From a virus: DNA of 27,036 nucleotides. Below are positions 119-20,026 of this stretch, piece after piece. The stretch spans positions 1 through 27,036 of IMG/VR virus record IMGVR_UViG_3300027759_000362. The stretch is one strand, 5' to 3'. Every line of letters begins with the position of its first letter. Within the stretch, counting starts at the first letter, position 1. The notes beneath the pieces are model-generated. The model saw nothing but the letters and a program-made list of their open reading frames with translations. It ran no database searches and was not told where the DNA came from. A program made the position numbers and the translations under genes.

Positions 119-152
119 TAAAAAACCCCACCTGAATTAACAGATGGGGTTT
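119..152 (-). terminator. Rho-independent terminator of the large RNA
   Basis: On the minus strand AAACCCCA...TGGGGTTT pairs (152-145 with 130-123), extended by CTG/CAG after one mismatch, with a small loop, followed by a run of six T. It ends the transcript that starts at the 1123-1154 promoter. Confidence 0.8.
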
Positions 153-946
153 AGTGGCTAAAAGGTTGAGAATAAACCTGTTATTAAGAATCTTTAGAAC
201 CATTATTGTTTCGGTTCGTTTCCACATCCTTTTGAGATGTAATCCTCAGTGATAATTGGTTATACCAATTACTTCTTGACTCGTAAACTACTCTCTTAAT
301 ACTCAACTCTCTTTAACCTTGCGAGCTAACTCAGGTTTCGACACCATAGAGGTTTTTCGTAAGAATACAATCAGACTTGCGGTCTTTTTGTGCTATGGAC
401 AGCCCATAACTAAGGAATCACCTTTCATTTACGAGTGATGGACACTTGTGCTTATGATTTTTAGTTTAACTTTTACATTAACATTGTAAATTATAAGTTT
501 GTGTGTCGTGGATGTTAGAAGTGGTGGTCCACCGTAAGCTCCGTTATCTTTTGAACAACAGAATACTAAACCACTCCTTGAGATGTCCCCATCTCCATAT
601 ATCAAGTCAACTTCAAACTAAGAACCTTGGTAGATTCAAAGTAGGGATAGTAACAGCACCGCCTGTACACCATCATACCTTTCGGTTTTAAGTCCACTTT
701 CTTATTGGAACACGCAATGATGAGATTGGAGGTCACACTTCTTACAATATCCCTACGAATTATTCTTATTGGTGTTCCCACCTCAACCAAACGACCCACA
801 TCGCTTGGTCATCTCAACTCTTCACCTACAGTGTTACCCTCGGTTACTAAAGCAAAAATGATATTTCGCTTGTATACTCAAGCTCCGTTTCCGAAGCCGC
901 AAACATGTTAACACAACACATTCACTTTATATTGATGTTAATCAAT

Positions 947-1084
947 TTATTTAACGACCATATACGGCCGATTATCATTTTCAGAAGTAAATCTCAGAAT
1001 CAACCCGAAGGTCTCATCATCAACAATCTGATGGATAATAATATCTTTCAAAGAGCTTGTTTCAATTTTAGAAAAGGAAACCAT
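947..1084 (-). CDS. Possible 45-aa ORF inside the 5' part of the large RNA
   Basis: An ATG-started frame of 45 codons begins 33 bases downstream of the predicted transcript start. The product is protein-like in composition (residues 19-32 read QIVDDETFGLILRF; it ends PYMVVK). A 6-bp hairpin (931-946) immediately follows the stop. Against coding: the same bases form small hairpins, one with a UUCG loop (1012-1003), and the transcript ends pair around it. No family recognised. It could be a leader peptide, a real small early gene preceding a shorter RNA, or chance. Confidence 0.25.
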   Translation of the reverse strand: MVSFSKIETSSLKDIIIHQIVDDETFGLILRFTSENDNRPYMVVK

Positions 1085-1122
1085 AGTTTTACAACATCGT
1101 CAACCCTTTCTTGATTGGTTTA

Positions 1123-1154
1123 CAAAGGTAAGATAAACTTTTCAATTTGTCAAA
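1123..1154 (-). promoter_or_regulatory. Strong promoter of the large RNA
   Basis: Minus strand TACCTTTG (1130-1123) with TTTG (1154-1151) exactly 20 bases upstream. The flanks, including an A-rich block with AAAAAAGTTTG upstream, resemble the promoters at 1423-1454 and 2480-2511. Transcription would start near 1117. Confidence 0.75.
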
Positions 1155-2611: not shown

Positions 2612-3238
2612 TTATGAATTTTTTTCCATATAATCCTTGAATCTCTTAGCTAAAGTACTAATATACCATTTAATAGTTCCTTCAGAAGTTCCAACTATTT
2701 CAGCTATTTCTTTATTTGGTGTTCCTTGCACTCTGAGAACCATAATATCTTTTTCTTTTTCTTTCAATGTTTTCAAGAAATCTTCAAAGGTTTTCTTAAC
2801 ATCATTATATATTGGACTATCATAATATCTATCAGATTGGGATATTTGGCTTGGGTCAATGTGTCTTGTTGATTTGAATTTATTTTGTTCTAATTCTCTC
2901 ACTTTATCTAACATTGTATTGTAAGCGATTTTTATAACCCATGAACTCAAAGAACCTTTACCTTGAAACTTATCAATATATTTTATCGCCTTTTCTAATG
3001 ATTTGGAAGCAATTAAATCAATATCATCATCGTCAAATTTTTGAGTTTTTGATTTGATGAAACTTTTTATCCTTTTATAAAATTGATTGAAAAACTCTGT
3101 TTGAGCTCTTCGGTCACCCATTTTAATCAACTCAACTAATTCAAGTTCATCTTGACTCATAAGAGTTTGCTCTGAAATTATACGATTAATTATTTTAATC
3201 AATTCAGTTTCGTTCAATCTAATAATGTTACTTTTCAT
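2612..3238 (-). CDS. ECF-like RNA polymerase sigma factor with capsid-targeting-like N-terminus
   Basis: 208 aa from ATG 3238. Region 2 spans about residues 40-115 (helices around FNQFYKRIKSFI and GSLSSWVIKIAYNTMLDKVR) and region 4 about 150-203 (KEKDIMVLRVQGTPNKEIAE then GTSEGTIKWYISTLAKRF, a helix-turn-helix). No region 1 or 3, so ECF-type architecture: it should bind host core polymerase and direct it to phage promoters. Before region 2 it carries LNETELIKIINRIISEQ (residues 8-24), in exact register with the N-terminus of the gene at 3699-4040, ending in I-S-E|Q like a T4 prohead-protease site. I chose this start because of that alignment; ATG 3277 adds 13 residues that break it. TATTTATG lies 5 bases upstream. 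Packaging into the virion is inference. Confidence 0.85.
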   Translation of the reverse strand: MKSNIIRLNETELIKIINRIISEQTLMSQDELELVELIKMGDRRAQTEFFNQFYKRIKSFIKSKTQKFDDDDIDLIASKSLEKAIKYIDKFQGKGSLSSWVIKIAYNTMLDKVRELEQNKFKSTRHIDPSQISQSDRYYDSPIYNDVKKTFEDFLKTLKEKEKDIMVLRVQGTPNKEIAEIVGTSEGTIKWYISTLAKRFKDYMEKNS

Positions 3239-3243
3239 ATCCG

Positions 3244-3251
3244 CATAAATA
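3244..3251 (-). promoter_or_regulatory. TATTTAT motif before the sigma gene
   Basis: Minus strand TATTTATG ends 5 bases before ATG 3238. Same motif as before other signal-bearing genes; candidate late promoter element. Confidence 0.3.
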
Positions 3252-3275
3252 GTTTTAATTATTCTTTTATGATTC

Positions 3276-3292
3276 ATACTATTTATTAGTAT
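3276..3292. repeat. Inverted repeat between divergent genes
   Basis: ATACTA-TTTAT-TAGTAT, perfect 6-bp arms. The right arm contains the first two bases of the DUF192 start codon (3291), and the left arm overlaps the alternative sigma start (3277). Could be an operator or a translation-control hairpin. Confidence 0.5.
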
Positions 3293-3638
3293 GAAAGTAA
3301 AAATCAACCAAAATATCTTCAAAGTCAAAACCCTTGTTGATGAAAAATCAAAATACATCGGTATGATGGGTAAAACTTTTGACGAAACTTTTGATGGTCT
3401 ATTATTTTTGATGGGCGGTGATAAACAATGTTTTTGGATGAAGAATTGTATAATTCCGTTGGACATTATTATCATCAAAAATAATGTTATTGTTAATATC
3501 CATCACAATTGTCCTCCATGTGATGATGACATGTGTCCAAGTTATTGCGGTAACGGAAATATTGTTTTGGAAATTGATGGTGGTTCTTGTGAAGAACTTA
3601 ATATTGAGCCTGGTGATTCAGTTGAGTATTTATTTTAA
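3291..3638 (+). CDS. DUF192 family protein
   Basis: 115 aa. The family signature is clear: G-x-M-x-x-x-F (residues 24-30), then FWMKNCIIPLDIIII (48-62), then VLEIDGG (92-98) and the terminal GDSVEY. DUF192 proteins are small beta-rich domains of unknown biochemical role, usually exported in bacteria; this one has no signal peptide and is cytoplasmic or virion-borne. Between strands it holds a cysteine cluster, CPPCDDDMCPSYC (74-86), that could bind a metal; related CPPC/CP-x-Y patterns occur in some family members. It is divergent from the sigma gene, which lies 52 bases away, and has TATTTATT 3 bases before the ATG. Confidence 0.85.
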   Translation: MKVKINQNIFKVKTLVDEKSKYIGMMGKTFDETFDGLLFLMGGDKQCFWMKNCIIPLDIIIIKNNVIVNIHHNCPPCDDDMCPSYCGNGNIVLEIDGGSCEELNIEPGDSVEYLF

Positions 3639-4530: not shown

Positions 4531-4553
4531 AAAAAGGGTTTTATGACCCTTTT
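4531..4553 (-). terminator. Terminator of the methyltransferase gene
   Basis: Minus strand AAAAGGGT (4553-4546), loop CATAAA, ACCCTTTT (4539-4532), then a long T run. The stem overlaps the methyltransferase stop codon at 4552-4554. Confidence 0.75.
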
Positions 4554-5424
4554 AATTAAATTCTAATTTGGTTTGTCTATTTAAATCAATAAAATGTTGG
4601 GCTCTATCTCGTCCAATCTTTGCATAATTCTCACTCAATTCAATTCCTACCCATCTACGATTCAAGGTTTCAGCTGCAACCAAACTAGTTCCACTACCAG
4701 CAAATGGGTCAAGAACAATATCATTTTTATAAGTCAATATTTTGATGGCTTTATTTGGAATATCCATTGAGAAACTTGCTTTAGTTAAAGATTTGGTATC
4801 CGCAAAGTATTTCCATTGTCCGAATACTAATTCCATAAACTCTTTCTTATCTTCTTCAAGATAAACTACTTTCTTTTTTACGGTACCATCTTCTTGTTCA
4901 ACATCTGTCGGAATACCCGTCCATTGTGGTTGTCCTTTAATTTTCTTAATGTGATGTTTTTTATATGCAAGAATCACACATTCTTTCGGATTGTAAATAT
5001 ATGGTGACGATGAACTCATCCAAGAACCCCAAGCTGTGGTCTTACTTCTATGTGGACTATCTTCTTCCAAATCAACGATACCAAAGAATTTGAATCCAAT
5101 CTCTTTCATCACTTGATAAACTTCGGAAACAAAAAATATTCTTCCACCTTTAGATTGTCGGTTAATTTCATATGGGATATTCAATGCAATTCTACCATCG
5201 TCTTTCAACACTTTATAAGCTTCGGTTAACCATTCTTTAGTAAACTTAAGATACTCTTCAATATCCATATCGTCATCGTGAACATCGTATTTGATGCCAA
5301 CACCATAGGGTGGTGATGTTACAATTAAATCAACACAACCCTCGGGGAACTTAGCCATTTCTTCAATACAATTCCCGTTGATAATCTGATTCAACACATC
5401 TTCTATATTTTCTATATTTTTCAT
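4552..5424 (-). CDS. DNA methyltransferase, TSPPY type (N4-cytosine or N6-adenine)
   Basis: 290 aa. Catalytic motif IV TSPPYG is at residues 36-41 and the SAM-binding motif I DPFAGSGTS at 239-247, an order typical of beta-group amino-methyltransferases (ParB/PvuII-like, Pfam N6_N4_Mtase). The linker between (about 100-215) would hold the target-recognition segment. TSPPY is more usual among N4-cytosine enzymes, but N6-adenine cannot be excluded. No restriction endonuclease is adjacent, so it is an orphan enzyme, probably protecting phage DNA from host restriction. It is a separate class from the D12 enzyme at 16853-17692. A terminator follows directly. Confidence 0.9.
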   Translation of the reverse strand: MKNIENIEDVLNQIINGNCIEEMAKFPEGCVDLIVTSPPYGVGIKYDVHDDDMDIEEYLKFTKEWLTEAYKVLKDDGRIALNIPYEINRQSKGGRIFFVSEVYQVMKEIGFKFFGIVDLEEDSPHRSKTTAWGSWMSSSSPYIYNPKECVILAYKKHHIKKIKGQPQWTGIPTDVEQEDGTVKKKVVYLEEDKKEFMELVFGQWKYFADTKSLTKASFSMDIPNKAIKILTYKNDIVLDPFAGSGTSLVAAETLNRRWVGIELSENYAKIGRDRAQHFIDLNRQTKLEFN

Positions 5425-8815: not shown

Positions 8816-9403
8816 ATGAATTCTGGTATCTACAAAATAACTAACACCACTAATAACAAGGTTTACATTGGTAGTAGTGTTAATATTTCAAACCGAGAAT
8901 ATAAACATTTTTGGATGTTGGATAAAGGTATTCACGATAATGAATATTTACAAAAATCATATAACAAATACGGTAAAGATGTTTTTATATTTGAAATTGT
9001 TGAATATTGTGAACCTAGTGAGTTAATTGAATCTGAAAATAAATTTATTACACTATATGAATCTAATAATCTTAAAAATGGTTATAATTTAGCTTCGGTA
9101 AACGAATTTAGACGAAACACATTCAATGATGAAGTAAAAATTAAATTATCAAAATATAATTTAAATAAGAATGGGAATATATATAAATTTTCATTAACAA
9201 ATCTTGAAACTAATGAAGAATTCATATTTGAAACTTTGGTTGATGGTGCAAATTATTTAATATTAAATGGATTTGCGAAAGGTAAACCAAGAAATGTTAG
9301 AATGTGTATTTCAAATTGTTTAAGAGGTATTAAATTAAATAATGGACATAAAGGTTCAATTAGAAAAAGTTGTTACAAACATAAATTTAAAATAATAAAC
9401 TAA
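8816..9403 (+). CDS. GIY-YIG homing endonuclease with NUMOD-like C-terminus
   Basis: 195 aa. GIY at residues 4-6 and YIG at 17-19, the conserved Arg (R27), a Glu in IESENKFI (71-78) and the NGYNLA segment (88-93) complete the nuclease domain. Residues about 122-185 match the NUMOD pattern 'Y-x-F-S-L-x-N-x-E-T-x-E' followed by a helix-turn-helix-like ISNCLRG, typical of free-standing phage homing endonucleases. It cuts an intronless allele to spread itself. It starts the rightward island, divergent from the WCTA gene, and is even more AT-rich than its neighbours, consistent with an insertion. Confidence 0.92.
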   Translation: MNSGIYKITNTTNNKVYIGSSVNISNREYKHFWMLDKGIHDNEYLQKSYNKYGKDVFIFEIVEYCEPSELIESENKFITLYESNNLKNGYNLASVNEFRRNTFNDEVKIKLSKYNLNKNGNIYKFSLTNLETNEEFIFETLVDGANYLILNGFAKGKPRNVRMCISNCLRGIKLNNGHKGSIRKSCYKHKFKIIN

Positions 9404-9420
9404 AAAAAAAAATTAAAATC

Positions 9421-9585
9421 ATGGGTGGATGCGGATGCAAAAATAAAGGAAACGAATCACAACAGCCTACTGTTCAACAAGTACAAGCGGCACAAGCTCA
9501 AAAACAACAAACAAATGAGAGTGTTAAAAGTGCAATCAAGAAAACTATTGAAAAGTACTACAATGTGAATAAGACAAGTAAGTAA
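9421..9585 (+). CDS. Small Cys- and Gln-rich protein, 54 aa
   Basis: ATG 9421, TAA 9583-9585. Starts MGGCGCKNKG, followed by a Gln/Ala-rich low-complexity segment (residues 14-31) and a basic C-terminal helix SAIKKTIEKYYNV. The Gly-Gly-Cys-Gly-Cys opening may bind a metal. It lies 17 bases downstream of the GIY-YIG gene and is followed by a clear terminator, so it ends that transcript. Short proteins with this opening recur in Bacteroidota phages in my memory, but I know no function. Confidence 0.7.
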   Translation: MGGCGCKNKGNESQQPTVQQVQAAQAQKQQTNESVKSAIKKTIEKYYNVNKTSK

Positions 9586-9610
9586 TTGTCTTACATTTAA
9601 CAAAATTTAA

Positions 9611-9638
9611 AAAGGGATAAAAATTTATCCCTTTTTTT
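9611..9638 (+). terminator. Terminator after the 54-aa gene
   Basis: AAAGGGATAA-AAAT-TTATCCCTTT (9611-9634), then T run. The next gene begins at 9652, so this separates two rightward units. Confidence 0.85.
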
Positions 9639-9639
9639 G

Positions 9640-9647
9640 TATTTATA
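9640..9647 (+). promoter_or_regulatory. TATTTAT motif, candidate promoter
   Basis: TATTTATA directly after the terminator and 4 bases before ATG 9652. Confidence 0.4.
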
Positions 9648-9651
9648 TATT

Positions 9652-10653
9652 ATGGATATTCAGGAATTAATTGAAATGTTTAATGATGGTGATACCGATT
9701 TCATCAAATATATTGGTGATGTTCAAACATTTTTTAAAATACTACATAAAAGAGATTTATTAGATGAGTTAGACCTTGATGGAAAGGTTATGGATGAGTA
9801 TCAAAATGATTTATTGTTATTTTATTATGAAAATGATAAAGAGAAGTTTTGGAAATATGTCTTAAAGTATTTGGGTGATGTTGAATTAGTTAATGGTGAA
9901 CCATATTTGGTTGTTCATGGCCAAGGAGACCTTGCAGAATTATTTTGTGATAATAGAAGAAACGACATTTCAAGAGATACGGTTGAGGCGTTATTAAGTG
10001 GTGAGTACGATAGTCATTCTTATGGTTGGAGTTATCACGATTTAACCGACAATGTTTATCGTGATGTAATTGAAGAACTAACCAAAGAAAACTTATTACA
10101 CCTAAAAGAGTATATTATCAAATCGTTAGAAGGTAAACAAATTGAACCATACACCGACTTACTTGAAGATTACGCCAAACAACAAGGTCATCCTGAATAT
10201 GTTACTATTGACCAATCCAATATAGACCAAGTAGTTGATAATGAAGAAACCATGGAAGAATTAATGGGTAATGAACTTGAAGAATTAAAGAGTGAGTTGT
10301 ATAATATCTATGGTAACTCATACAATAGCGCATATGAAGAAGAATTGTATGAAGATGTTTGGAGTGAGCTTTCAACCTACTTTGGAAAAGGTGAATGGGT
10401 GACAAGACCACACATATACAAGAAAGATACTGAAGTTCAAAAATTTAGAGTGCCAATTCACAACTTTGAAAGTAATATTTTTGATTACTTAAATGAAAAT
10501 AAAGGATATACTTATGGCACACTGGAATATTGGGGTTCCTACTTGGGTATTTTAAAAGAAGGTATGGATTGTTTAAGTGTTTATCCTCCTGATTATCCTG
10601 ATTCAAGAAAAGTTGATAAGAACATCAACATGTACTTCGGCGATTATATTTAA
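9652..10653 (+). CDS. Hypothetical acidic protein, 333 aa
   Basis: ATG 9652 (MDIQELIEMFNDGDTDF) is preferred over an upstream TTG that lies in the terminator's T run. Acidic and aromatic-rich, mainly helical. A middle segment (about 98-125) reads LVVHGQGDLAELFCDNRRND, and the C-terminal part (about 275-333) is beta-rich with repeated Tyr/Gly. No recognised domain or catalytic motif, and no targeting signal. It precedes the putative protease by 6 bases, so the two are co-expressed, and may be a partner or regulator of it. Confidence 0.75.
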   Translation: MDIQELIEMFNDGDTDFIKYIGDVQTFFKILHKRDLLDELDLDGKVMDEYQNDLLLFYYENDKEKFWKYVLKYLGDVELVNGEPYLVVHGQGDLAELFCDNRRNDISRDTVEALLSGEYDSHSYGWSYHDLTDNVYRDVIEELTKENLLHLKEYIIKSLEGKQIEPYTDLLEDYAKQQGHPEYVTIDQSNIDQVVDNEETMEELMGNELEELKSELYNIYGNSYNSAYEEELYEDVWSELSTYFGKGEWVTRPHIYKKDTEVQKFRVPIHNFESNIFDYLNENKGYTYGTLEYWGSYLGILKEGMDCLSVYPPDYPDSRKVDKNINMYFGDYI

Positions 10654-10659
10654 TAGTAA

Positions 10660-11502
10660 ATGATTAAGTTTCTTAACATATTATCAAACGTAATATCTGA
10701 ACAAAAAAGATATAAGTTATCCCCTGAAGATTATACAAAACTTTTGGAGTTGACCGACAGGTTGTGGGCGTTACGTAGTAAAGAAATTCCAAGAAAGGTT
10801 GAAGTAGACCAAATGGAATTCAAAACTGCGGATGGTAGTGATGGTAAATTCAAAGTGTTCTTGAATCCAAGATATAAAAATTATGGTCAAATGGATTTAA
10901 AACCAAGAACAACAAAAAACCCACAGAAGTTTGAAATGCAACTTAATCCTAAATTATTTGGTTCCAAAAAGAATTTATTCTTAACTCTATATCATGAATT
11001 GATGCATGCCACTGACCCCAACTTCACAACACAATATAATGAAAAATATTTTGCAGAGTATGACCCTAAGGTTGACGAAAAATACTGGGGTCATCCTATT
11101 GAGTTTAGAGCTATTACAAATGAATTTTTAGAAGGTCTTGTTAATGAGTTTAAAAGAAGAGATAGTAGAACAAACAAAATGGAAAATAGAGTATTGTTGT
11201 CAAAGTCATTGACTAACATACTTAATTACTTTGCCAAAGGAGAACCTTTATTAAGAATATCATTAGATATTTTAAATAGAATTAGTGATGAAAAATTAAA
11301 GGACACCAGAATGTCTAACTTGGTTGCAAACATTTCAACCGATTACCCTGAAACTAGTGAGTTCGTAAAAAATAAAAACCCTTATTACTTGAAGTTGATT
11401 GAGACCGTCCATAGTTTTGGTCCTGGTATGTGGCCAAGATTTTTGAAGATGTTATACGACACAACAGAAGAAATTAAAGATATTATAAATAAAGGAGTCT
11501 AG
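10660..11502 (+). CDS. Putative zincin metalloprotease with capsid-targeting-like N-terminus
   Basis: 280 aa. Leader MIKFLNILSNVISEQKRY has the cleavage-like I-S-E|Q at 12-15. The zinc motif HELMHATD is at residues 112-119 (HExxH plus an Asp), with WGHPIEFRAITNEF (143-156) downstream supplying a possible third ligand (His145 or Glu148). This is the gluzincin/metzincin-like arrangement of small secreted or phage zincins, though no standard family fits exactly. The C-terminal 120 residues are helical. If packaged it could act on host or capsid proteins or on cell-wall peptides during entry. Its stop codon lies inside a terminator hairpin. Catalytic activity is inference from the motif. Confidence 0.78.
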   Translation: MIKFLNILSNVISEQKRYKLSPEDYTKLLELTDRLWALRSKEIPRKVEVDQMEFKTADGSDGKFKVFLNPRYKNYGQMDLKPRTTKNPQKFEMQLNPKLFGSKKNLFLTLYHELMHATDPNFTTQYNEKYFAEYDPKVDEKYWGHPIEFRAITNEFLEGLVNEFKRRDSRTNKMENRVLLSKSLTNILNYFAKGEPLLRISLDILNRISDEKLKDTRMSNLVANISTDYPETSEFVKNKNPYYLKLIETVHSFGPGMWPRFLKMLYDTTEEIKDIINKGV

Positions 11503-11516
11503 TTGACTCCTTTTTT
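11491..11516 (+). terminator. Terminator overlapping the zincin stop codon
   Basis: AAAGGAGTC-TAGTT-GACTCCTTT (11491-11513), then T-rich sequence. The TAG stop (11500-11502) is in the loop. Confidence 0.85.
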
Positions 11517-11580
11517 CTTTTACATTCTAATTTCAATACATTATATTTAATAAAATAATAAAAGTTAAAGAACCGAAGTA

Positions 11581-12339
11581 ATGATATTGAAATCACCGAT
11601 TAGTAGATTATCCCTTGTAAATTTATTTGCAGATTTTATTTTAAATCAAATCCCTAAAGAAGAAGAAACCATAATTCAAGTTGTTGATTGTATTAATTTC
11701 TATGTAATCAAAGGCAAAACAACTTATAACGACCCCTTAAACATTGGAAAATTAAAAGATGATTTCATTGTTAAGTTTGAAAGTTATATGGGAGATGTTA
11801 AACTAACCCATACTATTGATTTAATTGAATATGATTGTAATTTAAGACCTTCAGATTTATTATCGTTCACCTATCATAACACAAGTAGTTGTTCGTACAA
11901 TCACCAACAAATACAATCATTTGAAATTGATGAAACACTATCTTACAATTACAAGTATTCATTAGAGACAATATCTGAAGATAATAACTTTACTCATATT
12001 TCTGAATTTCCACACGGTTATTCGTTAGGTCAGGGAAGGTTATTATATTACTATGGTAAACACATAACCTATAACATCCCATCATCTTATCCTTTCAACT
12101 ATTTAACCCTTGAATTATCAAATAATAAAGATAAGTCTGGTGACCAGATGTTCTCCGTAAAAAATGAATCAAACGAAATTGATTATACTCTAACATCAGC
12201 AATTTTAGATATGTTTGATTTTGATTTTAGTTGGTTGAAAAATGAAATAAAAAAAGTGGAATGGTATTCTGAAATAACCAATCCACTTGAAGATTATGAT
12301 TTCCTTAAAAAGAAAATCAAAGATTTTATAATTTTTTAG
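11581..12339 (+). CDS. Hypothetical protein, 252 aa
   Basis: Starts at ATG 11581 with an amphipathic helix (SRLSLVNLFADFILNQI, residues 8-24) that resembles the tagged proteins in shape but lacks an I-x-E|Q end. The rest is mixed beta/alpha, Ser/Asn/Tyr-rich, with no motif I recognise. It follows the 11491 terminator and a TATTTAATA sequence near 11544, so it is probably a separate unit. It converges on the glutaredoxin gene, overlapping it by 4 bases tail to tail. Confidence 0.7.
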   Translation: MILKSPISRLSLVNLFADFILNQIPKEEETIIQVVDCINFYVIKGKTTYNDPLNIGKLKDDFIVKFESYMGDVKLTHTIDLIEYDCNLRPSDLLSFTYHNTSSCSYNHQQIQSFEIDETLSYNYKYSLETISEDNNFTHISEFPHGYSLGQGRLLYYYGKHITYNIPSSYPFNYLTLELSNNKDKSGDQMFSVKNESNEIDYTLTSAILDMFDFDFSWLKNEIKKVEWYSEITNPLEDYDFLKKKIKDFIIF

Positions 12340-15487: not shown

Positions 15488-16804
15488 TTAGTCCTGTAAA
15501 TCCCACATTCCGCCGCCCATGTCAGTTCCTTTTTCTTTGATTTTTTCAGGAATATTAACATTTTGACTTCCTTTAAGATTCAAGAAATACAAGTTTGGTA
15601 AATCTGCAATACATTCAGGGATTTCTCTAAGTCCTTGGTTATCAGGTAACGCTAAGAATCTCAATTTAGGTAATGTACAAATTGAATCGGGGATATGTTC
15701 AACACAATTATCTAAAAGAATCATAGTCAATTCTTTGAATTTACCGATTGACTCAGGGATATTGATAATGACACTGTTCTTATCTTTGTTTTGGATTGAG
15801 AATTGTTTCAATGTTATAGGCAAGTTCTCAATTAAATCGTCAAGACCGTAAAGTCCGATGAATTTACCAACCGGTCCACTACTGAAACTATCTATAACAA
15901 GTTTTTCTCCTCCCATTGTTAAACCTTTTGCAAATTCAGGTTTGAAGAAATCTTTTAACTCAGACATAGGTCCGTTCAATAACTTAATCAAATCTTGTTG
16001 ATGGTCATCTTTATCCATGAATTGATTACTTGGGAAGTGGAACTGATATCTTTCTTTTGGAAGACCTGTTTCAGGAGAAACATCAGTATCATCTGTCTTA
16101 TAAAGAACATACAGCGGACCATCTTTAATATATCTATCAAAGTATGTTAAACCAGGTGCTGAAGTACACCATCTTGTCTCTTTGTTGTGTCCTCCGTAGA
16201 AACAAGCAGCTTCTTTACCAATAGCACCTTTATCTTTGATTTCAATAATTGTCCATGTTGGACCTTGATATAATAATTTAGCACCTGGATGTACATTTGC
16301 CGCCTTTCTTTCTGCCTTTGTTGTTGTCGCTAAAGTCAAATCAAAATCTTTAACCACATTGTATAATGTAGTAGGTGTCAATTTGTTGATATCCCTCATA
16401 TCTTGAGGAAGTCTGTTTTTGAATCTTTCAAACTTTTTAAGGTCATCGGTAACCTTATATAAGTCCTCCATGAAAGTTTCCTTAACTTGTGCCACCTCTC
16501 TATCATAACCATTATCACCAGGTTGTCTTTCAGTTGTTGGTGTTAGATAATTCTTAATTAACCACTGTACGAATTTACCAGCTTTGACTTTACCAAGTTC
16601 TTCAGAGTCCGCAGTTGACAGGTCAACATTGTTAGTACGAGTTGTTGGGTCGGCATTAACCAATTCAATAAATTCATCTTTAGTTAATTTTGGCTTTAAC
16701 TTTTTCCCTTCTTTGTCTTTTGATGGATTAGTTAATGCATCAAACAATAACTCAAATCTTGATTGTTCAAGAATAACTGTTTTTAATAACGACGTAAATT
16801 TCAT
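15488..16804 (-). CDS. Leucine-rich-repeat protein with WCTS domain and capsid-targeting-like N-terminus
   Basis: 438 aa. Leader MKFTSLLKTVILEQSRFELL has cleavage-like I-L-E|Q at 11-14. A charged helical region (40-160) leads to a domain at about 175-265 with AACFYGGHNKETRWCTSAPG and DRYIKDGPLYVLY, the same core as in the 6975-8729 protein. Residues 328-420 are three to four leucine-rich repeats (IPESIGKFKELTMILLDN; IPDSICTLPKLRFLALPDNQ; IPECIADLPNLYFLNLKGSQ), a protein-binding solenoid of the 'IPxxIxxLxxLxxLxL' type. LRRs are unusual in phage. Together this suggests a packaged or delivered protein that binds a host partner. The TATTTATA motif lies 19 bases upstream. Confidence 0.85.
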   Translation of the reverse strand: MKFTSLLKTVILEQSRFELLFDALTNPSKDKEGKKLKPKLTKDEFIELVNADPTTRTNNVDLSTADSEELGKVKAGKFVQWLIKNYLTPTTERQPGDNGYDREVAQVKETFMEDLYKVTDDLKKFERFKNRLPQDMRDINKLTPTTLYNVVKDFDLTLATTTKAERKAANVHPGAKLLYQGPTWTIIEIKDKGAIGKEAACFYGGHNKETRWCTSAPGLTYFDRYIKDGPLYVLYKTDDTDVSPETGLPKERYQFHFPSNQFMDKDDHQQDLIKLLNGPMSELKDFFKPEFAKGLTMGGEKLVIDSFSSGPVGKFIGLYGLDDLIENLPITLKQFSIQNKDKNSVIINIPESIGKFKELTMILLDNCVEHIPDSICTLPKLRFLALPDNQGLREIPECIADLPNLYFLNLKGSQNVNIPEKIKEKGTDMGGGMWDLQD

Positions 16805-16852: not shown

Positions 16853-17692
16853 CTAATAATTTAAAATTAACAACTCTTCACCCATATTTTGTTTTGCACC
16901 TTTTTTTGCCGACGCCGCTTTGGCAAACTCTTTTTTCTCCCATCTATATTGATTTTCAGGAAACCACTCAGATAATATTGGGAAATCATAGTAAGACATA
17001 CCAAATTTACCTTTAACTCTTTTTAAAGTATTTGCCAATCTTTCGTGGTCATTCCTATCAAAATCATGATTTGAATAGTAGTTTTCTGTTTTCCAATATG
17101 GAGCATCCACATAGTGGAATGTTTTATCAGAATCATACTTTAATATTAAATCTTCAAAATCCATATTTTCAATATGAGTAATTTTAAGAAAATACTCCAC
17201 CCAATCAGGCTTAGAAAGTTTATCTCGGAATGTTAAATATTTTGACTTATACTTTCCTTTAAGGTCAATAAACGAACTTGTTTCTGGTTTAGAACCACTA
17301 AAAACTTGAGTAACAACATAAACGTACTTAGCAGCAATTTCATAATCGTAAGCCTCTACCCTGAAATTCTTATCAAATATTTCAGCCTGAAACCTGATAA
17401 ATTGTTCTTTACATGTTTCAGGAGTTGGAAAGACATCTTTTTCTTGACACGGAATTTTATTTATCTCCTCCAATAATCTTGAAGGATTTTTAATACATTG
17501 AAATAAATTATAATTTAACGGATTTAAATCATTATACACAATTTTTTTAAGATTTGGGTACTTACTTAAATCCATATTAAAATAACACCACATCATGCCC
17601 CCGAAACTTTCAGTATATATCTCCATATCATTTGGATAATACTCCACTAACCATTTTCCTATTTTACTTTTACCACCAATCCAACTTAACAT
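16853..17692 (-). CDS. D12-class (Dam-like) DNA adenine methyltransferase
   Basis: 279 aa. SAM-binding start WIGGKSKIGKWL (residues 4-15) and ESFGGMMWCYFNMDL (29-43) correspond to the D12-family opening and motif I (FxGG). The catalytic motif, normally DPPY, reads DAPYW (about 197-201) in FHYVDAPYWKTENYY; one Pro is replaced by Ala, which is tolerated in some relatives. The order motif I then IV is the alpha group, unlike the enzyme at 4552-5424. It methylates N6 of adenine, most often at GATC-like sites. It lies one base downstream of the LAGLIDADG gene, consistent with the homing element targeting a conserved phage gene border. Confidence 0.88.
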   Translation of the reverse strand: MLSWIGGKSKIGKWLVEYYPNDMEIYTESFGGMMWCYFNMDLSKYPNLKKIVYNDLNPLNYNLFQCIKNPSRLLEEINKIPCQEKDVFPTPETCKEQFIRFQAEIFDKNFRVEAYDYEIAAKYVYVVTQVFSGSKPETSSFIDLKGKYKSKYLTFRDKLSKPDWVEYFLKITHIENMDFEDLILKYDSDKTFHYVDAPYWKTENYYSNHDFDRNDHERLANTLKRVKGKFGMSYYDFPILSEWFPENQYRWEKKEFAKAASAKKGAKQNMGEELLILNY

Positions 17693-18933: not shown

Positions 18934-19092
18934 ATGGAAAACAAAAAACAAACAAAAGAATGTAAATCATGTAAATCTAAAAACCCAATATCAAAACCAA
19001 AAAATTTAATTTTTCTCGGTGGGTTTATATTATTCACTTCAATTTATGGAACCATAGAGTTAGTGAAACATATAGTATCTTGGTTTAAATAG
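18934..19092 (+). CDS. Small single-pass membrane protein, 52 aa
   Basis: ATG 18934, TAG 19090-19092. Residues 8-14 contain KECKSCKSK (a CxxC), then a hydrophobic segment LIFLGGFILFTSIYGTIEL (25-43) and a short tail ending in HIVSWFK. Divergent from the Cys-rich gene with 13 bases between starts, and its end overlaps the dnaJ end by 8 bases. Real because the frame is open, short, and fills the gap exactly; function unknown. Confidence 0.6.
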   Translation: MENKKQTKECKSCKSKNPISKPKNLIFLGGFILFTSIYGTIELVKHIVSWFK

Positions 19093-20026
19093 ACCTTTCA
19101 AACTTAACATTTAATTTAACATACATATCCCCTCCCATAAATCCCTTTCCTCTTAACCTCAAAGGTTTTGTTGTGTCAAACAATGTTGGGGCGTTCATGA
19201 TTAATTCTCCATCAGGATGTGGTATTGTGAACTTATCTTTTTGGGCTTCTTCCAAATTAAGAACCAAGTTATAAATTAAATCATTATTCATTTTTTCAAA
19301 TCCATCTGACGGAACAACTTCTATTTGAATAACCAAATCTCCGTATTCACCATTTCTAAAATCTCCTAAGTCAGCAAGTTTTAAATACTGACCATTATCA
19401 ACCCCAACTGGTAGTTTTACACTTATTTCATGAGTTGCTGGTTTAACCCCATTACCACCACAATTATAACATCTGTGAACCAATGTATATCCTCTACCCG
19501 CACAGGTTCCACATGCTGTTCTTATTTGTTGAGTCATAAATCCAGTTCCGAATGATTTAACTTGGAACCCTGAGCCCGCACAGGTATTACATCTTTGTTG
19601 GTCACCACCACTTCCACTACAGATATCACACATATTGTCTTTAAGGTATTGGATTTTTTTATCTATTCCTCTATAAGATTCAATCGGTGTGATTTGAACT
19701 TTAATTATCTTATCAGGTGCCGACTTTCGTCTTTGGGTGGAACCAAATGGGTTACCCATTTGTCCCCCAAACATTTGATTAATTAAATCTTCATAAGGCA
19801 CACCACCTCCCCCACCAGCAAAGGGGTTATTTAGTTGATTATCATATTCTCTTCTCTTATTCTCATCACCCAAGGTTTCATAAGCTCTTGCAATCTCTTT
19901 AAATTTTTCAGCACCCTCAGGGTTTCTATCAGGATGGTATTGAATTGCAAGTTTTCTATAGACCTTTTTTATCTCATCTTGCTTTGCGTCTTTACTTACT
20001 CCTAAAATTTCGTAATAATTATTCAT
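19085..20026 (-). CDS. dnaJ: DnaJ/Hsp40 co-chaperone
   Basis: 313 aa. J domain at 1-65 with HPD at 31-33, the Hsp70-stimulating motif. A G/F-rich linker (66-97) follows. The zinc domain has four CxxCxGxG motifs at 133, 146, 172 and 186, all cysteines present. The C-terminal beta domain (200-313) binds substrate. Thus a class I (type A) DnaJ, somewhat shorter than bacterial DnaJ because the linker and C-terminus are compact. It recruits host DnaK to fold phage proteins or aid assembly; no DnaK gene is in the window. It starts 2 bases from the divergent gene at 20029. Confidence 0.96.
   Translation of the reverse strand: MNNYYEILGVSKDAKQDEIKKVYRKLAIQYHPDRNPEGAEKFKEIARAYETLGDENKRREYDNQLNNPFAGGGGGVPYEDLINQMFGGQMGNPFGSTQRRKSAPDKIIKVQITPIESYRGIDKKIQYLKDNMCDICSGSGGDQQRCNTCAGSGFQVKSFGTGFMTQQIRTACGTCAGRGYTLVHRCYNCGGNGVKPATHEISVKLPVGVDNGQYLKLADLGDFRNGEYGDLVIQIEVVPSDGFEKMNNDLIYNLVLNLEEAQKDKFTIPHPDGELIMNAPTLFDTTKPLRLRGKGFMGGDMYVKLNVKFERSI

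Follow-up and report, generated by a model that had tools for sequence, protein, structure and literature searches.

GOLLD and ROOL are giant RNAs of phages, and their sequences are unrelated. Both form cages, and one GOLLD, env-38, has been solved by cryo-EM as a 14-mer (PMC12286853). In that structure the RNA has a two-domain layout, the linker lies inside the cage, and a kissing contact between L20 and J13/15 is made between chains (PMC12286853). GOLLD accumulates during lytic infection (PMC7567579, PMC12286853); for a Lactobacillus brevis prophage, as far as the account cited in PMC7567579 goes, it accumulates in lytic infection and is dispensable for phage production. The phage ICP1 also makes an abundant non-coding transcript of ~800 nt (PMC7567579). 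The GOLLD cages are now solved structures, and the control of their expression has been little studied.

The other system that bears on the present locus is the boxA element of rRNA leaders. In E. coli, boxA RNA binds NusB/NusE, and the resulting complex prevents Rho termination in reporters, while its main role at rRNA, it has been argued, lies in correct folding and maturation (PMC4807359). A survey of gammaproteobacterial boxA elements states that non-coding RNAs were left out (PMC5725501). We did not find boxA mentioned together with GOLLD in the largely open-access GOLLD literature that we searched.

The DNA studied here, referred to as the window, comprises positions 1 to 27,036 of IMGVR_UViG_3300027759_000362, an IMG/VR virus record with phage-type genes. 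Near one end, on the minus strand, lies a transcription unit spanning ~1118-113, which consists of a promoter, a structured RNA of ~1 kb and an intrinsic terminator. Its parts, in the order of transcription, are as follows.

1123-1154, minus strand: promoter of the Bacteroidota -33/-7 (sigma-A) type, recognised from the sequence and kept in relatives
947-1084, minus strand: small leader ORF of 45 aa, judged non-coding from a frame that is not conserved and a blank Pfam search
1046-1056, minus strand: boxA-like element GCTCTTTGAAA in the leader, a motif shared with relatives and with Bacteroidota 16S leaders
579-970, minus strand: 5' domain of GOLLD, which the Rfam model does not cover, defined by columns 10-540 of alignment A1 and their compensatory changes
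163-578, minus strand: GOLLD 3' domain (RF02032, full model 1-416; 297 bits, E 2.4e-84)
451-507, minus strand: variable AT-rich linker with no tRNA inside, from the alignment and a tRNA search
123-152, minus strand: intrinsic terminator hairpin, from the sequence, with a U-tract to ~113

The promoter is exact in its parts, with TTTG at 1154-1151, a spacer of exactly 20 nt and TACCTTTG at 1130-1123, and a comparison of leaders showed the same promoter to be conserved among GOLLD relatives. Since the Bacteroidota -7 box TAnnTTTG spans -12 to -5 (PMC9723704), the start is predicted near 1118. At the other end, the hairpin at 152-123 has 12 pairs, 6 of them GC, and is followed by the U-rich tail TTTATTTATA. 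The GC content over the unit is 0.33-0.40, compared with about 0.25-0.36 in the surroundings, and the RNA folds more stably than its shuffled versions (z -4.3; 0/20 shuffles as good). For the leader by itself the fold is no more stable than in shuffled versions (z -1.0), and for this reason we do not claim a structured leader. A preliminary description of this DNA had placed a less AT-rich, structured kilobase with its own promoter and terminator at 119-1117. Those coordinates are right within a few bases, the promoter, terminator, base composition and fold are all borne out by the values above, and the strand, which it did not name, is minus. Its remarks that the transcript was the most abundant-looking one and early are unsupported, as sequence cannot show either, and its suggestion of high expression is unsupported too.

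A cmscan of the window, a check which the preliminary description had proposed, returned a single family, GOLLD (RF02032), at 578-163 on the minus strand, with 297 bits and E = 2.4e-84. The match spans the full model from 1 to 416 at twice the gathering cut-off of 150 bits. ROOL gave no match in the window at the gathering threshold, and a search of positions 1-1500 that admitted E values up to 5 found none either. The RNA is like ROOL in being a giant phage RNA of similar size, and in belonging to a cage-forming kind (PMC12286853), but it differs in having no ROOL match, and a ROOL identity was rejected on that ground. The earlier assignment to the GOLLD/ROOL group was thus sound, and it can be narrowed to GOLLD.

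The locus shares with described GOLLDs the full 3'-domain match, a size of about 800-1000 nt and a phage location, and with env-38 also the two-domain layout, the variable linker and long-range loop contacts (RF02032; PMC12286853). It differs in three respects: its 5' domain falls outside the Rfam model; no tRNA lies near the window copy within the contig, tRNA islands being frequent for GOLLD and not obligatory; and the window copy comes with a promoter, a boxA-bearing leader and a terminator of its own. By description, the ICP1 transcript (PMC7567579) is similar in being a giant transcript from a gene-free stretch of ~1 kb with no tRNA nearby.

In a blastn search of phage records, the 5' half of the RNA matched two huge-phage genomes, LR745206 (634,780 bp) and LR756502 (642,428 bp), and the 3' half matched an Acinetobacter phage. 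GOLLD is present in all three, and the 5' domain occurs in LR745206 and LR756502 as well. Bacteroidetes hosts have been assigned to the size class of 634- and 642-kb huge phages (PMC7162821). A pattern for the 5' domain was found in at least 118 IMG/VR stretches. Two sets of loci were drawn from such pattern scans; they consist of the matches listed, are not an unbiased sample, and include related loci that are not fully independent. In set 1, collected with the 5'-domain pattern, 46/50 records scored above the GOLLD cut-off, and in set 2, collected with a 3'-domain pattern only, 48/50 non-redundant records did so, in both cases among the matches listed. Homology extends over about 970-163 and beyond, adding a 5' domain to the Rfam match for a total of at least about 800 nt, and the closest relatives among the matches listed are 79-85% identical over the whole unit, from promoter through terminator.

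As the 5' half lies outside the Rfam model, one could consider that the RNA founds a class of its own and has nothing but its giant size in common with GOLLD or ROOL. The full-length match in the window at twice the cut-off and the high proportions of relatives' records above it make this scarcely conceivable, and a new class was rejected. On the Rfam match, the covariation over the whole RNA described below and an upstream ORF that is not conserved, the unit is, as judged from its sequence, a GOLLD RNA of the known class and not a new RNA class. The RNA is a true GOLLD, and its phage probably infects Bacteroidota, a host that agrees with the type of promoter and with the relatives among huge phages. 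No plasmid relatives were found, and the 5'-domain motif had 0 matches in the GTDB collection. GOLLD was found in 0/148 Bacteroidota genomes under stricter filters with which the controls were also silent, which makes this weak evidence of absence.

Covariation was examined in an alignment of the whole RNA, A1, built from 45 non-redundant sequences among the matches listed. It has 194 consensus pairs, and 149/194 show compensatory changes. The proportion of paired cells is 96.8%, compared with 77.4% when partners are shuffled and 37-44% when partners are slid, and the observed pairing values were reached by 0/500 shuffles. Support for the helices is as good in the 5' domain, which is not in Rfam, as in the 3' domain. 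Several contacts join distant positions, all of them identified by covariation.

797-799, minus strand: GUG in a 5'-domain loop, covarying with CAC at 510-508 over a long range and outside the nested fold
508-510, minus strand: CAC partner of 799-797, in the segment just past the first 3'-domain helix
417-419, minus strand: GUG covarying with CAC at 253-251
251-253, minus strand: CAC partner of 419-417
380, minus strand: hairpin-loop position covarying with position 450 at the end of the linker

The contact between 799-797 and 510-508 involves three column pairs, all of them 100% complementary with several pair types, and strongly covarying column pairs outside the nested fold also join 531-528 with 439-442. 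At 380/450 the pairs are GC in 23 sequences, CG in 18 and AU in 4, again with 100% complementarity; by comparison with the cryo-EM structure this is probably the intermolecular kissing contact L20-J13/15 (bridge B7). As far as aligned sequences can tell, the covariation shows that selection acts on the whole ~800-nt RNA, the distant loop contacts included, across a large group of phages. The preliminary description had made its reading depend on compensatory substitutions in homologues, and these turned out to be abundant.

The same description had seen no convincing ORF, and this view held up as well. The ORFs within the unit are at most 69 aa long on both strands, and the only plausible one is the 45-aa ORF at 1084-947. 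Because this frame of 45 codons runs from ATG to stop just past the predicted start in the window, the unit might be partly protein-coding, with the leader ORF translated and the RNA as its 3' untranslated region. The frame is, however, interrupted in L086, a relative with 85% identity, and missing in others, and the Pfam search with it had no match, so that its status as a gene was rejected and a coding unit appears very improbable. No conserved protein family, the finding that the preliminary description had named as contrary to its own reading, emerged from Pfam or from frame comparison in relatives.

The RNA itself belongs to a known kind; the new part, and one which a specialist would not expect, is its boxA leader. 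When the leaders are aligned, a single short block, GTTCTTTGA, stands out between promoter and RNA body as common to them; it is carried by nearly all AT-rich relatives among the matches listed. The window has the core copy GCTCTTTGA at 1056-1048, with GC instead of GT at the first two positions, and the GYTCTTT[GA]A core thus lies in the leader, on the sense strand and downstream of the promoter. Within 150 nt upstream of the body, G[CT]TC[TA]TT[GA]A was present in 100/106 leaders among the matches listed (expected 0.97), and the remaining 6/106 have GTTCTTTAC or GTTCTTTGT. The strict form GYTCTTTGA was found in 33/44 non-redundant leaders of set 1 (expected 0.11) and 38/50 of set 2 (expected 0.28), again among the matches listed; set 2 had been gathered by the 3'-domain pattern only in order to avoid circularity. 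On the reverse strand, and inside the RNA body, the strict form was found 0 times in both sets. Among the 12 leaders of set 2 without it, four have GTTCTTTAA, one has GTTCATTGA, and three belong to phages of about 60% GC. In a logo of the leaders the motif is near-invariant amid flanks that are mostly poor in information, and it sits anywhere from 20 to 97 nt from the body, which argues that the block is conserved for itself.

The motif has limits in its distribution. It is absent from the tRNA-GOLLD spacer of LR756502, and the examined GOLLDs of Streptococcus, Mycobacterium and Acinetobacter have no copy nearby. A boxA is therefore not common to GOLLDs in general; outside the AT-rich group such a generalization is unsupported, save for one roseophage. 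This phage, DSS3_MAL1, has GCTCTTTGACAATT (L246:591-604) ahead of a tRNA-GOLLD-tmRNA array, in which the annotated tRNA-Arg overlaps the GOLLD match. Three loci from phages of ~60% GC (L268, L315 and L326) have GOLLD at lower Rfam scores and are without the boxA-like motif.

The same motif family is present in 63/107 leaders of Bacteroidota 16S genes (expected 0.72), where it sits about 30 to 220 nt before the gene. The leader element therefore agrees with the boxA-like motif found in the rRNA leaders of the host, given a host phylum that we infer. The flanks AAGTTC[A/T]TTGA and TATTGA are common to 16S and GOLLD leaders; the fifth base of the motif is often A in 16S leaders and rarely so in those of GOLLD. 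The motifs also recur directly before phage tRNA and tmRNA genes. Among the phage loci in the matches listed, the density of the strict motif is 2.0 per kb in GOLLD leaders and 0.42 per kb within 150 nt before tRNA/tmRNA genes, compared with 0.03 elsewhere on that strand. Compared with the boxA of rRNA leaders (PMC4807359, PMC5725501), the GOLLD element has the same GYTCTTTGA core and the same setting, downstream of the promoter in a leader that belongs to a long, structured and untranslated RNA; it is different in being a putative Nus site carried by a phage RNA, with no rRNA or ribosome assembly involved.

The explanation that best accounts for these results, and in which we have good confidence, is that of a ~1-kb GOLLD RNA of a Bacteroidota phage, which starts from a host-type promoter, carries a boxA leader, would engage the host Nus machinery and would assemble into a cage. 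Host RNA polymerase with its housekeeping sigma factor would start near 1118, and the boxA of the nascent leader would recruit NusB/S10 (NusE) and other Nus factors, as in the transcription of rRNA. The polymerase could then escape Rho termination over about 900 nt of untranslated RNA, the Nus complex would keep the 5' end tethered during the folding of both domains, and the finished RNA would assemble as a homo-oligomeric cage like the 14-mer of GOLLD env-38. The element and its place were observed directly; the binding of Nus factors to the GOLLD leader, and their effect there, we infer by analogy with rRNA. A long, untranslated and highly structured RNA has the same needs as rRNA, and the phage most likely passes its untranslated GOLLD through the NusB/S10 rRNA machinery of the host.

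Alternatively, this could be an ordinary GOLLD whose leader motif is conserved for another reason, such as processing by an RNase or binding of a phage regulator. The Nus-factor role is read from sequence, and the absence of the motif in LR756502 and in the examined GOLLDs of other phyla would suit this alternative. We nevertheless consider it unlikely, as the motif agrees with that of host 16S leaders in sequence, strand and place, shares its flanks, and also precedes other stable RNAs. Returning to the boxA reading in its wider form, it seems fairly likely that Bacteroidota phages put their stable-RNA operons (GOLLD, tRNAs and tmRNA) under a copy of the host rRNA boxA, so that the host complex for rRNA transcription and folding would build the phage RNA cage co-transcriptionally. 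If this is true, the use of boxA extends to phage non-coding RNA. The leader boxA also offers a concrete and easily tested handle on the transcription and folding of GOLLD in the cell.

The surroundings of GOLLD in its relatives are of interest in this respect. The RNA is often found behind a tRNA of the same strand, usually Met as in env-38, and sometimes with tmRNA; among the matches listed, 25/45 relatives have a tRNA or tmRNA just upstream of GOLLD. The window has no tRNA, and only about 112 nt of contig follow the unit. Given the tRNA/tmRNA islands that surround the locus in relatives, we tentatively favour the possibility that the cage is a lytic-phase compartment handling stable RNA or translation components. 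Across the 95 non-redundant GOLLD loci of sets 1 and 2 (matches listed), 416/419 tRNA/tmRNA genes are on the same strand as GOLLD, and there are 18 tmRNAs. GOLLD occurs twice on one phage contig of 58,992 bp (L298, record G082), at 19.7 kb and again at 36.3 kb.

Several upstream genes of the window, among them a sigma factor and a methyltransferase, are shared with dozens of GOLLD loci. The phage-encoded sigma factor, of the sigma-70 family (ECF-like), is at 2612-3478 on the minus strand, upstream of the GOLLD unit, and has matches in 43 GOLLD loci. The minus strand also encodes two DNA methyltransferases (4552-5424 and 16853-17692, the second Dam-like), a protein with leucine-rich repeats near its C-terminus (15488-16804) and a phage-encoded DnaJ-like co-chaperone (19085-20026). 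Between them, at 8816-12339 on the plus strand, lies an island of opposite-strand genes with reversed GC skew, the first of which encodes a GIY-YIG homing endonuclease; it is possibly a mobile insertion.
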